From contig JAKQIY010000013.1 of assembly GCA_029561455.1 (NCBI GenBank), positions 310,001 to 374,000 of the forward strand: a stretch of 64,000 nt of DNA. Reading direction: 5' to 3'. The first letter of the stretch is position 1. Each line of letters starts with the position of its first letter. Origin of the DNA: a bacterium (GTDB taxonomy: Bacteria; Zhuqueibacterota; Zhuqueibacteria; Residuimicrobiales; Krinioviventaceae). The position numbers were made by a program, and so were the translations under genes. Below the pieces are notes generated by a model. That model was not told where the DNA came from. It did no database searches and worked only from the letters and a program-made list of their open reading frames with translations. Below, piece after piece: positions 26,819-32,927 of this stretch.

Positions 26819-28168
26819 ATGGGTTTTATTCCCAACACCGACGCTGATCAACAGCAAATGTTGAATAAAATTGGCGTCCGTTCATTTGCTGAATTAATAG
26901 GCAATATTCCCGGAGAGTTGTTATTCAAGGGTGAATTAAAACTGCCGGTCCCGTTATCTGAAATGGAAGTGCTCAAGCATTTAAACGACCTGGCGGGACA
27001 AAATGCCAATTGTGAAGATCATATTTGCTTTTTGGGTGGTGGCGCTTATGACCATTTCATACCCGCGGCGGTAAAGCATATTATCTCCCGGTCTGAATTT
27101 TATACAGCTTATACACCATATCAGCCGGAGGTCAGTCAGGGCACTTTACAGGCTATTTATGAATTCCAGACCATGATCTGTGAACTCACCGGCATGGATG
27201 TCGCAAATGCCTCTGTGTATGACGGCGGTTCTGCTCTGGCGGAAGCCATGTTGCTGGCCTGTGGTTTTACCGGAAGAAAAGAAATCCTGATTGCCGCAAC
27301 TATAAATCCGAGTTATTTGCAGGTGATAAAAACATATTCCCATGGCCGTGGAATAGTAATCCGCACAATCGATTGGCAAAACGGAGCTATGGATTTGCAG
27401 GATTTGGAAAAGCACATTTCCGATCAAACTGCGGCGGTAATTGTTCAGTACCCCAATTATTTCGGGTATCTGGAAGAAGTAGACACCATTGCGCAACTCA
27501 CCCATAAAAATGGCGCGCTATTTATAACCTCCAATGATCCAATATCCCTGGCTCTACTGGAGCCACCGGGTGTGTACGGCGCTGATATTGTAACCGGTGA
27601 AGGTCAGGTCCTCGGCAATCCGATTAGTTTTGGCGGCCCCTACCTGGGTTTATTTGCCGCTAAAAAGGATTTAATCCGCTATATGCCGGGTCGTATTGTC
27701 GGGCAAACGGAAGACAAGAATGGTAAAACCGGTTATGTATTAACGTTGCAAACCCGTGAACAGCATATCCGCAGGGAAAAAGCGACCTCAAATATTTGTA
27801 CCAATCAGGGTCTGAATGCCCTGGCGGCCACTGTGTATATGTCGTTAATGGGGAAGAACGGTTTACCGGCAGTCGCTCATTTATGTCTGCAAAAAAGTCA
27901 TTACCTGGCGCAACGCTTGTCGGCGCTTAAAGGATTAAAGCTGAAATTTGATCGCCCCTGGTTTAAAGAATTTGTAGTCGAACTAGAGTCAAAATATTCC
28001 GTCAATAATATTATTAACAAGATGTTGGAAAAAAAGGTTTTTGCCGGGATTTCTTTGCAGGAAACCGATAAACGGCTCGGAAATTGCATACTAGTTACTG
28101 TTACTGAAAAACGCACCAAAGAAGAGATGGATTATTATATTAAATCCATGCAGGAACTTTTACAGTAA
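26819..28168 (+). CDS. gcvPA: Glycine dehydrogenase (decarboxylating) subunit 1, P-protein alpha
   Basis: The 449-residue N-terminal half of split glycine decarboxylase forms the active enzyme with GcvPB. Typical segments are FIPNTDADQQQMLNKIG, CFLGGGAYDHFIPAAV, YTPYQPEVSQGTLQA and ASVYDGGSALAEA, and the C-terminal domain holds REQHIRREKATSNICTNQGL. It lacks the PLP lysine, as expected for this subunit. It ends the long housekeeping run; a new promoter begins 68 bases after its stop. Its partner gcvPB is 21 kb upstream. Confidence 0.95.
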   Translation: MGFIPNTDADQQQMLNKIGVRSFAELIGNIPGELLFKGELKLPVPLSEMEVLKHLNDLAGQNANCEDHICFLGGGAYDHFIPAAVKHIISRSEFYTAYTPYQPEVSQGTLQAIYEFQTMICELTGMDVANASVYDGGSALAEAMLLACGFTGRKEILIAATINPSYLQVIKTYSHGRGIVIRTIDWQNGAMDLQDLEKHISDQTAAVIVQYPNYFGYLEEVDTIAQLTHKNGALFITSNDPISLALLEPPGVYGADIVTGEGQVLGNPISFGGPYLGLFAAKKDLIRYMPGRIVGQTEDKNGKTGYVLTLQTREQHIRREKATSNICTNQGLNALAATVYMSLMGKNGLPAVAHLCLQKSHYLAQRLSALKGLKLKFDRPWFKEFVVELESKYSVNNIINKMLEKKVFAGISLQETDKRLGNCILVTVTEKRTKEEMDYYIKSMQELLQ

Positions 28169-28236
28169 AAAACAGTATAATTTTTTAGCGCCGGTAAGTA
28201 ACGCTCTTGATGTTTAAATATATTAATAAAAAAGAC

Positions 28237-28265
28237 TTGACTCTTTTTTTATTAATTTGTAATTT
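28237..28265 (+). promoter_or_regulatory. Sigma-70-type promoter for the PorV-like gene and its leader RNA
   Basis: TTGACT (28237-28242), a 17-base spacer and TAATTT (28260-28265) match the gcvPB promoter hexamers exactly. Transcription would start near 28272, giving a leader of about 240 bases before the start codon at 28515. Confidence 0.65.
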
Positions 28266-28271
28266 TGAAGG

Positions 28272-28487
28272 TCATAAATTTATTAGTTAACAGGAGTAAG
28301 CCTATAAAAGTTCGTTAAAGATTTTATTTAGTTTTGTGATTTATATTAAATAAAAATAAGCGGATATTACCCAAATTAATATACGCACTACTTTAACGAA
28401 GTTGAAAGGTTTACCTAATGATATGTCCGAATGTCTAAGGGTAAGTTCCTTGATACAGGAGCAACGCTCACATTCGGATTTTTTTTT
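28272..28487 (+). promoter_or_regulatory. Structured 5' leader with terminator-like hairpin (candidate cis-regulatory RNA)
   Basis: The 346-base gap between gcvPA and the PorV-like gene holds several helices. A perfect 10-base-pair long-range stem joins 28311-28320 and 28391-28400. Inside it is a hairpin with arms near 28356-28364 and 28378-28386 (GCG...CGC, one mismatch). Then comes a nine-base-pair stem, 28426-28434 with 28470-28478 (TCCGAATGT/ACATTCGGA). It encloses an asymmetric internal loop (10 and 7 bases) and a six-base-pair inner hairpin (28445-28450 with 28457-28462), and is followed at once by nine T residues. The terminator ends only 27 bases before the start codon, so no second promoter fits. 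Attenuation or a riboswitch is therefore likely. I recognise no known class. Confidence 0.5.
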
Positions 28488-28514
28488 GAGAGTACTTAAC
28501 AGGAGGCTTTTGTA

Positions 28515-29612
28515 ATGAAAAAGGTAATAATTAGTCTGGTTTGTATATTCATGCTGTTGTTTTCATTTGCGCAGGTTTACGCGGTAAGCGAGGCAGCGGT
28601 ATTGTTTTTAATGATTTCTCCGGGCGCCCGCGCCGCCGGTATGGGTGAAGCATTTGTTGCTCTTGCCGACGACGCAACAGCAGTATTCTGGAACCCCGCC
28701 GGTCTGGCGTTTCAACAGGGAAGAGAGGTTACCCTGATGCATGCCAACTGGCTACCGCAATTCGGGTCCGATTTATTTTATGAATTTGGCGCCTACCGGC
28801 AATCCTTTGAAGGTATTGGTACGGTTGGTTTTAACATCACTTATTTAAATCTCGGTAAACAAAGTGTTACTTTGGAAACCGGGCCTGAAGTAGTTGATGA
28901 ATTTTCCAGTAATGAATTTGCCATATCGGGAACCTTTGGTACAAAACTGAATGAAGACCTGGGTGTCGGTTTGGGTTTGCGTTATATTCGTTCCAACCTG
29001 TCGCCCATCGGCGCCGGCTCTGAAAAAGGCGACGGCCGCGCCAATGCGTTTTCTTTTGATGTTTCCGCATTATACCATACCCCATTTCTGAAAAAATTAA
29101 GCTTTGGCATTAATCTTTCCAACCTTGGTCCCAAAATTACTTATATTGATGCTGCGCAAGCTGATCCGATCCCGACCAACCTCAAAGTCGGTTTTGCCTA
29201 CAGGATCATTGATGATGAATTTAATAAATTAACCGTGGTTGGAGATCTCAATCACCTCATGGTAAAACGTTATTCCGACGGCACTTCCGATGCCTGGTAC
29301 AAGGCATTGTTCACATCACCCTGGACTGTTGTTGAAAAAGAAACCCAGAATATTGGCGGTGATGAAGAGAAGGTGACCGGTGAGAAAAAACTTTTTAACG
29401 GTATATTAAGCGGCGGCGTTGAATACTGGTACAGCAATCTTATTGCTTTACGCGCCGGTTATTATTGGGATGAACCTGGCAAAGTTAACTTTACTTCTTT
29501 TGGCGCCGGCATCCAATATAACCTGTACCGTTTTGATTTTGGCTATGTAAACGCAGCAGAGGGGCACCCCCTGTCTAATACCATGCGTTTTTCTCTGACA
29601 CTGGGCTTTTAA
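28515..29612 (+). CDS. PorV/UPF0164-family outer-membrane beta-barrel protein
   Basis: The 365-residue outer-membrane protein has a signal peptide (cleavage about residue 23, FAQVYA). The family opening follows: SPGARAAGMGEAFVALADDATAVFWNPAGLA (within 35-66). The rest alternates like a FadL-type barrel and ends in an aromatic, FSLTLGF. PorV is the shuttle or attachment component of the type IX secretion system, but many FCB genomes carry several PorV/PorQ paralogues of unknown role. The next gene encodes a protein with a T9SS sorting domain, which favours a secretion-linked role. AGGAGG lies before the ATG. A long structured leader and a downstream hairpin make it a separately regulated unit. 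Confidence 0.88.
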   Translation: MKKVIISLVCIFMLLFSFAQVYAVSEAAVLFLMISPGARAAGMGEAFVALADDATAVFWNPAGLAFQQGREVTLMHANWLPQFGSDLFYEFGAYRQSFEGIGTVGFNITYLNLGKQSVTLETGPEVVDEFSSNEFAISGTFGTKLNEDLGVGLGLRYIRSNLSPIGAGSEKGDGRANAFSFDVSALYHTPFLKKLSFGINLSNLGPKITYIDAAQADPIPTNLKVGFAYRIIDDEFNKLTVVGDLNHLMVKRYSDGTSDAWYKALFTSPWTVVEKETQNIGGDEEKVTGEKKLFNGILSGGVEYWYSNLIALRAGYYWDEPGKVNFTSFGAGIQYNLYRFDFGYVNAAEGHPLSNTMRFSLTLGF

Positions 29613-29765: not shown

Positions 29766-32700
29766 ATGCGAAAAAACTTGGTCATATTTTTTATTCTCGG
29801 TTTTGTAATTCTGTTTTCAATAGTACAACTAGCCGCCAAACCCTCACGGTTCCATTCTCTTGCCACGAGCACAGATCCATTGCAGGTTGTGCAAAATTAT
29901 CAAACCGGTCCAACACTTCACGCAATATCAGCAACACCGGATACTGTGCGGGTGCTGGCATTACGGGCTGAATTTGTTGAAGACAACCTGGCAACTACAA
30001 CCGGCAACGGTTTATTTGATCTTTCTTCCAGCAGCAGTTATGTTATCGACCGTCCTCCGCATGATCGTTCTTATTTTCAGCAGCATTTACTGGGTTTAAG
30101 CAACTATTTCCGGCAGGTATCGCGCGGCAGATTAATAATTGAAGCCGATGTATTACCAGAAGCGGATTTGCAAGTCTATACCTTGCCGCAGAATATGGTT
30201 TACTACAGCGGCCAGGAAAACGATGAATTGAAAAAACAACGCTGGGCTGAATTACTACGCGATGTGATTACCCTGGCCAAAGAACAGCATCATCCTGATT
30301 TTTCCCGTTATGACGCCGTTATAATTTTTCATGCCGGGGTCGGTAGTGATTTTGCCTTTGATTTCGATACCACGCCCTATGATATACAATCCGTATTTCT
30401 CGATTTTGAAACATTGCTGGAAACGCTCGGTAAAGACCTTGACGGTTACCAGGGCATCGACGCCGGTAATAATGTTTATATTAAAGAAGGGATAATACTG
30501 CCGGAAATGCAAAATCAGGAAGATCAGGTTCTGGGTTTATTCGGCACCATGACCCTGCTGATGGGCAGCCAACTCGGCATGCCCAGCCTGTATAATACTA
30601 TCGACGGCACCGCCGGTATTGGCCGCTGGGGTTTGATGGATCAGGGCTCGTTCAATTTTTACGGCCTTATTTCTGCCGAACCCTGCGCCTGGAATAAGGT
30701 ATATATGGGGTGGGAAGAACCCGTGGTAATCACGAGCGGTGAAAATATCAGGATAGGCGACCCAAAATCCAAATCGGTGCCGCATATTTATAAAATACCG
30801 ATAACCGACCGGGAATATTTTCTGGTTGAAAACCGGCAGCGCGATCATAACCGCGATGGCGTTACCTTTGGTCGTGGTACCGACGGCAGCCGCGCCCAAT
30901 TCGACAGCCTGGGCAGTGTTGTTGCCGACGCCGCGTTGGAAGTGATCACCTCGGTTGATGAATACGATTTTGGCTTACCCGGTTCAGGATTACTGATTTG
31001 GCACATCGATGAAGATGTTATTGCCGAAAACTTGATAACAAATACCGTAAACAAGAATCGCGAACATCGCGGCGTCGACCTCGTGGAATGCGACGGCGCC
31101 CAGGATATTGGCTATTACTATGGTATGTTTGATCCCGGTTCCGGGACCGAATCCGGCGACTATTTTGACCCATACTGGGCCGGAAACATTTCTCATAAAA
31201 TTGTTAACAATGATGTTGATACTGTTGCTTTATCGCCGCGTACCATTCCCAGCAGCAATGCTTATGATGGCGCATTATCTCACATAAATATTTACAATAT
31301 CAGCGCCAATGACTCGGTAATGACCTTTTCATTGCGCTCCGACCTGGTGCAGGCCGGGTTCCCGCAATACGCAGGAACCGGTTTTGCCAGCGGCGCCCTC
31401 AAACCAATTACTTTGAGCGGCAATGAGCAGGGCGTTATTGCTGTGTCCCTGGCCGGACAAGTACTGGGCTGGAAAGCTAATGGAGAAAAAATTATTGCCA
31501 ACGACCAGGTGCGGACTAGATCGACCCTTTATGGAACTGATGTTATAAATAATTATGCCTGGTTTGCTGCTGCGTCCGATTCGGTAATGCTGCCTCCTGC
31601 AATTACCGATATAGACGGCGACGGCAGCGACGAGGTGATCGTTGCCGATAAACGCGGCAGTATTAAAATTTGGAAAACTGTCGACGCCAATCTTGACGGC
31701 AGCGCCGATCTTTACGCAGATATTAACATCAACGCTAAACCGACCGCCGGGCCGATGATCATTCCCGGCAGTAATGCAACACCCAATGTTATTATTGGTA
31801 CTGCCGACGGTAAAGTTATCCGCCTGCAGGTTAGTGGCGAGTTGTTTTCCCAACAACAAATTGATTTGCATGCCGGGGTTGTTGCCGGGTTGGCTTGGCA
31901 ATTACATGGACAATCCAAAATTTCTACAATCAATGTAATTACCGCCAACGGAAACCTTTGTGGTCTGGATACTGATCTGACAATGCTTTGGCAGACGGTT
32001 GTGCCATTTTTCGCTTCCCGCTATTATATCGTTAATGCCGATTTCAATGGCGGCGATGATTATGAAACGGTTGTTCTCAGTGATAAAGGTGATTTTGCCC
32101 TTTACAATTCCAGTGTGCTGCTCAGACAAAAATCTATAACCGACGCAGTTATCGGCTGTCCTCCGGCGATTGGCGATGCCGATGGCGACGACTTGCCGGA
32201 AATACTGTTCACCAGTGGCAAGTACCTGCATGCCCTGAAATATAACGGACTGACCGCAACCAATTTCCCGACAGTGGTTAGCGCTACCGGAGACGAACAA
32301 GCTCATGCAAATTCTTTGTTATCATTAAGCGATCCTGTCATGGGCTCGGTTATTTTAATTCCCGCCACTGATGGCATGATCCGGGCGGTGAACAGTAAAG
32401 CGCGTACAATACCAGGTTTCCCGTTAACTGCCGGATCAGAGATTGCCGCAACGCCCTTGTTGATCGATGTCAATAAGGATAATGACCTGGAGTGTCTTAG
32501 CCTTAGCGATGATGGTTTCCTGTATGCGTGGAATTTAGATCTACGTCCGGTGGGTGAAACTTTATGGTCACAGTATGGCGGTAATTCGGCCAATACTTTT
32601 GCCCTTGCCGGCGAACATACTATGGTTGTACCTGGCTCAGGATTATTACCGGATAAAAAAGCCTATTGTTACCCGAATCCGGTTTATAACGGCGTTTGTA

Positions 32701-32927
32701 ATATCCGTTATTTGTTAACCGAAAATGCCGAATCGGTGTCAATACGGATTTATGATATTGCCGGCGACCTGGTAACGGAGATCAATGCACCCGAAACCAC
32801 CATCGGCGAACATGAAGTTCTGTGGGATGTTGCAACTATACAAAGCGGCTCCTATATTGCCCGCATTGAAGCAAAGCGAAATAATGATAGCGGAATCAAA
32901 TTTATTAAAATTGCAGTGGTGAAATAA
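29766..32927 (+). CDS. Secreted M6-like protein with lost HExxH, beta-propeller region and T9SS sorting domain
   Basis: The 1053-residue secreted protein has a signal peptide (about 1-23) and an M6 (immune-inhibitor-A-like) metalloprotease-related domain (about 55-420). A region of FG-GAP/propeller-like repeats follows (about 520-950, repeated DIDGDGSDEVIVADK, DADGDDLPEILF and DVNKDNDLECLSL motifs). The end is a type A T9SS C-terminal sorting domain (about 965-1053, starting near YCYPNPV and containing SIRIYDIAGDLV). In active M6 enzymes the zinc motif is HExGHxLGLPDLY. Here the aligned segment reads L264-L-M-G-S-Q-L-G-M-P-S-L-Y, with no zinc ligand, so it is probably not a protease. The nearby GRWGLMDQGS segment keeps family character. 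It follows the PorV-like gene. Confidence 0.8.
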   Translation: MRKNLVIFFILGFVILFSIVQLAAKPSRFHSLATSTDPLQVVQNYQTGPTLHAISATPDTVRVLALRAEFVEDNLATTTGNGLFDLSSSSSYVIDRPPHDRSYFQQHLLGLSNYFRQVSRGRLIIEADVLPEADLQVYTLPQNMVYYSGQENDELKKQRWAELLRDVITLAKEQHHPDFSRYDAVIIFHAGVGSDFAFDFDTTPYDIQSVFLDFETLLETLGKDLDGYQGIDAGNNVYIKEGIILPEMQNQEDQVLGLFGTMTLLMGSQLGMPSLYNTIDGTAGIGRWGLMDQGSFNFYGLISAEPCAWNKVYMGWEEPVVITSGENIRIGDPKSKSVPHIYKIPITDREYFLVENRQRDHNRDGVTFGRGTDGSRAQFDSLGSVVADAALEVITSVDEYDFGLPGSGLLIWHIDEDVIAENLITNTVNKNREHRGVDLVECDGAQDIGYYYGMFDPGSGTESGDYFDPYWAGNISHKIVNNDVDTVALSPRTIPSSNAYDGALSHINIYNISANDSVMTFSLRSDLVQAGFPQYAGTGFASGALKPITLSGNEQGVIAVSLAGQVLGWKANGEKIIANDQVRTRSTLYGTDVINNYAWFAAASDSVMLPPAITDIDGDGSDEVIVADKRGSIKIWKTVDANLDGSADLYADININAKPTAGPMIIPGSNATPNVIIGTADGKVIRLQVSGELFSQQQIDLHAGVVAGLAWQLHGQSKISTINVITANGNLCGLDTDLTMLWQTVVPFFASRYYIVNADFNGGDDYETVVLSDKGDFALYNSSVLLRQKSITDAVIGCPPAIGDADGDDLPEILFTSGKYLHALKYNGLTATNFPTVVSATGDEQAHANSLLSLSDPVMGSVILIPATDGMIRAVNSKARTIPGFPLTAGSEIAATPLLIDVNKDNDLECLSLSDDGFLYAWNLDLRPVGETLWSQYGGNSANTFALAGEHTMVVPGSGLLPDKKAYCYPNPVYNGVCNIRYLLTENAESVSIRIYDIAGDLVTEINAPETTIGEHEVLWDVATIQSGSYIARIEAKRNNDSGIKFIKIAVVK

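Follow-up and report, generated by a model that had tools for sequence, protein, structure and literature searches.

A putative RNA switch upstream of T9SS surface-attachment genes in candidate division KSB1 and other phyla

In the window, the 64,000-nt stretch of DNA analyzed here, porV, which encodes a component of surface-protein export by type IX secretion (T9SS), is preceded by a promoter, a folded leader of approximately 210 nt and an intrinsic terminator located 27 nt before the start codon. How, then, is porV transcribed? The window lies on contig 29 of a 5.85-Mb genome of an uncultured bacterium, assembled in 85 contigs; among named genomes, MAGs of candidate division KSB1 are closest to it. 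The leader was found once in this genome by a genome search. The upstream gene, gcvP, ends at 28168, approximately 0.1 kb 5′ of the leader. The features of the locus are as follows (window positions, all on the + strand).

28237..28267, +, promoter: TTGACT (28237-28242), 17-nt spacer, TAATTTTG (28260-28267); from sequence
28292..28296, +, conserved AGGAG at the 5′ end of the motif; alignments A1 and A3; inside the P1 pairing in some lineages
28296..28303, +, strand A, 5′ half of P1 (GTAAGCCT); fold, covariation
28311..28320, +, 5′ half of P2 (TTCGTTAAAG); alignment, covariation
28321..28390, +, variable apical region with internal hairpins; fold, alignment
28391..28400, +, 3′ half of P2 (CTTTAACGAA); alignment, covariation
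28407..28416, +, strand B: 3′ half of P1 (AGGTTTAC, 28407-28414); alternative partner of strand C via GGTTTACCT (28408-28416)
28426..28434, +, terminator 5′ arm (TCCGAATGT); sequence, covariation
28439..28447, +, strand C, terminator loop region (GGGTAAGTT); complementarity to strand B
28470..28487, +, terminator 3′ arm (ACATTCGGA, 28470-28478) and nine T (28479-28487); sequence, covariation
28501..28506, +, Shine-Dalgarno sequence of porV, AGGAGG; from sequence
28515..29612, +, porV homologue, the controlled gene; Pfam PorV E=1e-30; NCBIfam PorV_fam 297.7 bits (cutoff 90)
29766..32927, +, T9SS-dependent M6-like metalloprotease homologue with Por_Secre_tail; next gene 3′ of porV

Signals and fold of the leader

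An original prediction, made from the letters alone, had placed a promoter 5′ of the leader, and the TTGACT/TAATTTTG pair was located there; the leader transcript would start near 28272-28275. Of 51 relatives, 29 had TTGAC in the 100 nt preceding the motif, whereas 4.3 would be expected from shuffles. A generic pattern scanner listed neither the promoter nor the terminator of the leader, because the promoter is of the FCB type and the terminator loop exceeds the scanner limit. Two other features of the promoter region were observed. GGAACTT, an ECF/sigma-E-like −35 element, preceded the motif by at most 160 nt in 15 of 51 KSB1 leaders (0.19 expected), upstream of the porV leaders of L077, L079, L082, L084, L087, L099, L017, L018 and L020 among others, and mostly where the TTGACA promoter was absent, as in a swap of promoter class before the same leader. 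In the window, a 12-bp perfect inverted repeat (ATTAATAAAAAA/TTTTTTATTAAT, 28222-28256) extends across the −35 region of the leader promoter and may be an operator or a terminator of gcvP.

The predicted terminator was present as described, with a nine-bp stem, a 10/7 internal loop, an apical hairpin and nine T residues followed, after 27 nt, by the ATG at 28515. The claim that no promoter fits after it also held, since this gap is commonly 14–36 nt in relatives, many genomes having such a spacing. Because 27 nt past the T run is too short for a promoter, read-through into porV must occur. The locus thus has the arrangement of a transcription attenuator, namely a promoter, then an intrinsic terminator, and no further promoter before the start codon.

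Upstream of the terminator, both the predicted 10-bp long-range stem (here P2) and the internal hairpin (TTTTATTTA/TAAATAAAA at 28322-28330/28347-28355) were recovered, and P2 is enclosed by an outer helix, P1, which the original prediction had overlooked. The folding energy of the leader was −66.9 kcal/mol, as compared with −51.6 ± 4.9 kcal/mol for dinucleotide shuffles (z −3.1, 0/200). By contrast, the internal loop of the terminator, which had been proposed to be a ligand or protein site, found no support as such: GGGTAAGTT, overlapping its first strand, is the complement of the P1 3′ strand and the proposed switching strand, and the second strand, AACGCTC, is not conserved among relatives. 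Repeated copies of TTAACAGGAG (28284-28296 and 28493-28505) and of AACGCTC (28197 and 28460) in the window were suggestive but absent from relatives.

Occurrence and conservation of the leader

Nearly all of 60 related genomes, in addition to the named loci, yielded an orthologue in a PorV search, and the regions upstream of these orthologues contained the same leader in almost every KSB1 family. The leader was not detected upstream of porV in families f12 (L025, L027 and L028) and f13 (L078 and L085); the f12 upstream regions keep a promoter-like GGAACTTTT. The covariance model R1, built from 18 leaders, matched 51 of 82 KSB1 genomes, and R2, built from a broader set, matched 57 of 82. Where the contig allowed the gene 3′ of the leader to be identified, at 24 further loci, it was nearly always porV. 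Weak model matches on the opposite strand (E 1e-5 to 0.1) were discarded as artefacts, because the helices are self-complementary.

The leader carries a conserved core at its 5′ end, consisting of GGAG, GCCUAU and GUUAAAGG; the last of these, in the 5′ half of P2, is the most conserved among relatives and reads GUUAAAGA in the window. The order in relatives is AGGAG, 3 nt, GCCUAU, a few nt, UUCGUUAAAG and a variable stretch, followed by CUUUAACGAA, AUAGGC, a linker, CCGAAUG...CAUUCGG and the T run. Spacing between the helix arms differs by tens of bases among relatives, which argues for an RNA and against a DNA-binding site for a dimer. At L052:739-849, a degenerate leader was observed in which the P2 3′ strand (CCUUUAACGAGC) is followed at once by the T run, so that the sensor helix itself would seem to take the place of the terminator.

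Beyond KSB1, two of the 39 genomes in the phylum of G083 matched R2 with E values of 1e-11 and 1e-9; as both leaders were in the R2 training set, the unbiased values are those of R1, 3e-8 and 2e-6. Five of 132 Zixibacteriota genomes matched R2, which was built without Zixibacteriota sequences, at individually modest E values of 3.5e-6 to 6.8e-5. A PorU-like gene lay downstream of every match outside KSB1, at both loci in the G083 phylum and, as an open frame of PorU-like appearance, immediately 3′ of all five Zixibacteriota matches; the three of these frames tested by profile matched the PorU sortase (E 7e-23 to 8e-38). Model R3 found no match in two further phyla (0/80 and 0/64 genomes), which bounds the false-positive rate.

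The helices were then evaluated by covariation. In alignment A4 (32 sequences, three phyla), which was fitted to the structure, 11 of 23 pairs had two-sided changes; three helices covaried, with 38 two-sided cells, whereas shuffles had 10.3 ± 2.6 and slid controls no more than 8. A plain MAFFT alignment, A1, pointed in the same direction (6 cells, 1.4 expected, 0/500), and RNAalifold on A1 independently recovered part of P2 and the terminator. In Zixibacteriota, CGUAUAG/CUAUACG replaces GCCUAU/AUAGGC in P1, and AUAGUUAAAGG/CCUUUAACUAU replaces UUCGUUAAAGG/CCUUUAACGAA in P2. The alignment proposed as a check on the original prediction has therefore yielded compensatory changes in the helices, across phyla. 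The other proposed check, against Rfam, returned no known class: the window had no match in Rfam 15 at the gathering threshold, the leader alone had none up to E=10 at a permissive threshold, and the leaders of ten relatives gave only sub-threshold chance matches. A structured sensor domain conserved across distant species, as in riboswitches, is thus present in a leader that Rfam does not describe.

Second copies of the leader are rare in KSB1, and five precede genes other than porV. In three genomes, the copy is followed by a lipoprotein gene and then by a gene for a beta-propeller protein with a FlgD-like C-terminus, whose match to the PorZ tail is weak and below cutoff. The copy in G074 lies approximately 0.3 kb upstream of a C25 peptidase with a Por_Secre_tail, and that in G068 has a nucleotide-sugar dehydrogenase gene and a polysaccharide export gene downstream. 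In Porphyromonas gingivalis, the attachment complex consists of PorU, PorV, PorQ and PorZ (PMC8545088), and the sugar that links cargo to the surface is a product of the Wbp pathway, to which WbpA belongs (PMC7468200); the G068 dehydrogenase may belong to a similar cargo-linking sugar pathway. As to the genes around porV, the M6-like metalloprotease homologue in the window scored 552 bits, below the cutoff of 600, with the sorting tail present, and at many other KSB1 loci porV is followed by a long frame of similar start. A second PorV-family frame with one TAG stop inside was observed at G013:C247:3938-4933.

Alternative pairing and readings of the leader

Strand B, the 3′ strand of P1, is also complementary to strand C of the terminator loop. 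Across 50 leaders, the best leader-to-loop complementarity was 19.06, as compared with 16.00 in dinucleotide shuffles (z 8.1); sequence just 5′ of the leader, used as a control, gave z 0.6, and the excess was lost (15.6) when terminator loops were exchanged between genomes. In the window's order, B:C scored 18.7 versus 13.8 ± 0.6, at mostly constant positions, and at least four positions had two-sided changes, the partners changing together as GGCUUACCU:GGGUAAGUU, GCUUCUU:AAGAAGC, GGCUCACUUG:CAAGUGAGCU and UUACCCUUU:AAAGGGUAA. P1 (A:B) and B:C share strand B and, as pairings, are thus mutually exclusive and compensated, as expected of an attenuator. The window's own B:C is weak (nine pairs, four of them G-U; single-sequence p 0.32-0.40). 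Its energies were −57.6 kcal/mol for P1, P2 and the terminator versus −37.2 kcal/mol for B:C without the terminator, and the energy model placed P1 ahead of B:C by approximately 10 kcal/mol when the terminator 3′ arm was not yet made.

Elsewhere, pairings onto the terminator base were identified by eye: GGGC:GCCC in family f10, GGUUUGGU:ACCAAACC and GGUCUGGU:ACCAGACC in other KSB1 classes, and CGGCC:GGCCG in Zixibacteriota. These differences among lineages indicate that there is no single fixed design for the switching strand. The theme common to them, as read from sequence, is an upstream strand predicted to be able to capture part of the terminator, as an attenuator needs. B:C and the terminator could also coexist as a pseudoknot, instead of one replacing the other.

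Lack of an Rfam match, conservation and compensation across phyla, and the lack of space for a promoter give good support to the original proposal of a riboswitch or attenuator of unknown class. Given its absence from Rfam and its position before T9SS genes in at least three phyla, the leader very probably represents a T9SS RNA switch that has gone unrecognised, and we consider it probable that it is a cis-acting transcription attenuator for T9SS surface-attachment genes. The sensor domain would be closed by P1 and P2 and contain the conserved 5′ core. In the default state, P1, P2 and the terminator would form and transcription would end near 28487; this default is suggested by the predicted lead of P1 over B:C at the stage without a terminator 3′ arm. 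A signal, either a small molecule or a protein, would act on the sensor to keep A off B, whereupon the freed B may capture C, the terminator would be hindered or remodelled, and RNA polymerase could read into porV.

What the sensor would bind is a matter of more tentative readings. A metabolite-binding riboswitch, in which P1 and P2 with GGAG, GCCUAU and GUUAAAGG form a putative aptamer for a small molecule, is a credible reading that falls somewhat short of an even chance; the ligand might, with similar reservation, be a second messenger or a nucleotide sugar involved in cargo attachment. The 5′ core kept in three phyla, with covarying helices around it, points this way, as do the few, functionally linked genes behind the leader, the nucleotide-sugar dehydrogenase among them. 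The top-conserved positions, however, are mostly within P2 and not in loops, which is unusual for an aptamer, and the apical region varies in length and sequence. A slightly more doubtful reading is that a putative RNA-binding protein acts on GGAG/GUUAAAGG and prevents or stabilises P1. Sequence identity is kept within the helix GUUAAAGG/CCUUUAAC and GGAG is nearly invariant, suggesting that the strand is read by sequence.

Promoter, folded body and terminator also make up a complete unit, such as an independent gene for a trans-acting small RNA that ends by chance just before porV. This is improbable, because the leader precedes porV or porU in differing phyla and contexts, and because the 14–36 nt between terminator and start codon in many genomes admit no second promoter; a terminated product of the attenuator may additionally be active in trans. 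That the structure is an ordinary gcvP terminator with chance folding, a reading favoured by the nearby gcvP end, is scarcely conceivable given the intervening promoter, the constancy of the motif before porV or porU despite different upstream genes, and covariation far above controls, the alignments already contradicting it.

Leader-peptide attenuation was rejected, as a start codon after a Shine-Dalgarno-like site occurred in just 5 of 51 leaders and none was shared. A 31-codon frame runs from approximately 28423 to porV, where it ends, but the frame is interrupted in L003, the nearest relative.

Relation to known systems

Riboswitches and attenuators that end in intrinsic terminators were surveyed by Naville and Gautheret in 2010 (PMC2965389). 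Like these, the leader combines a sensor domain, mutually exclusive pairings and a terminator between promoter and gene, and is kept before one gene family in many species; unlike them, it matches no Rfam family and its genes are those of T9SS surface attachment. It also resembles orphan riboswitch candidates (e.g., PMC2864571), for which covariation and gene association are the evidence and no ligand is assigned, but it comes from uncultured FCB-type phyla and is linked to T9SS. Attenuators and orphan riboswitch candidates are known kinds of element, and the leader family and its gene set appear to be new.

In P. gingivalis, T9SS genes are controlled by PorXY-SigP (PMC4800418). The leader would likewise control T9SS component genes at the level of transcription, through RNA where that system uses a two-component system and an ECF sigma factor; some KSB1 porV leaders do have an ECF-like GGAACTT promoter 5′ of them. 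The literature searched, with most subscription papers and all preprints outside its scope, contained no RNA control of T9SS genes and no riboswitch from KSB1.

The published control of T9SS genes that we found consists of proteins (PorXY and SigP) in Bacteroidota. It is conceivable, if doubtful, that the leader represents a new riboswitch class for the T9SS attachment machinery in at least three phyla, gating porV and porU by small-molecule sensing; the molecule might then be linked to cargo attachment (e.g., the activated linking sugar) or might report the state of the cell envelope. An RNA switch before porV or porU in KSB1, Zixibacteriota and a third phylum would point to an old, conserved signal for assembly of the surface-attachment machinery, and the signal that times this machinery would be directly testable in vitro on a 200-nt RNA, with no culturing.
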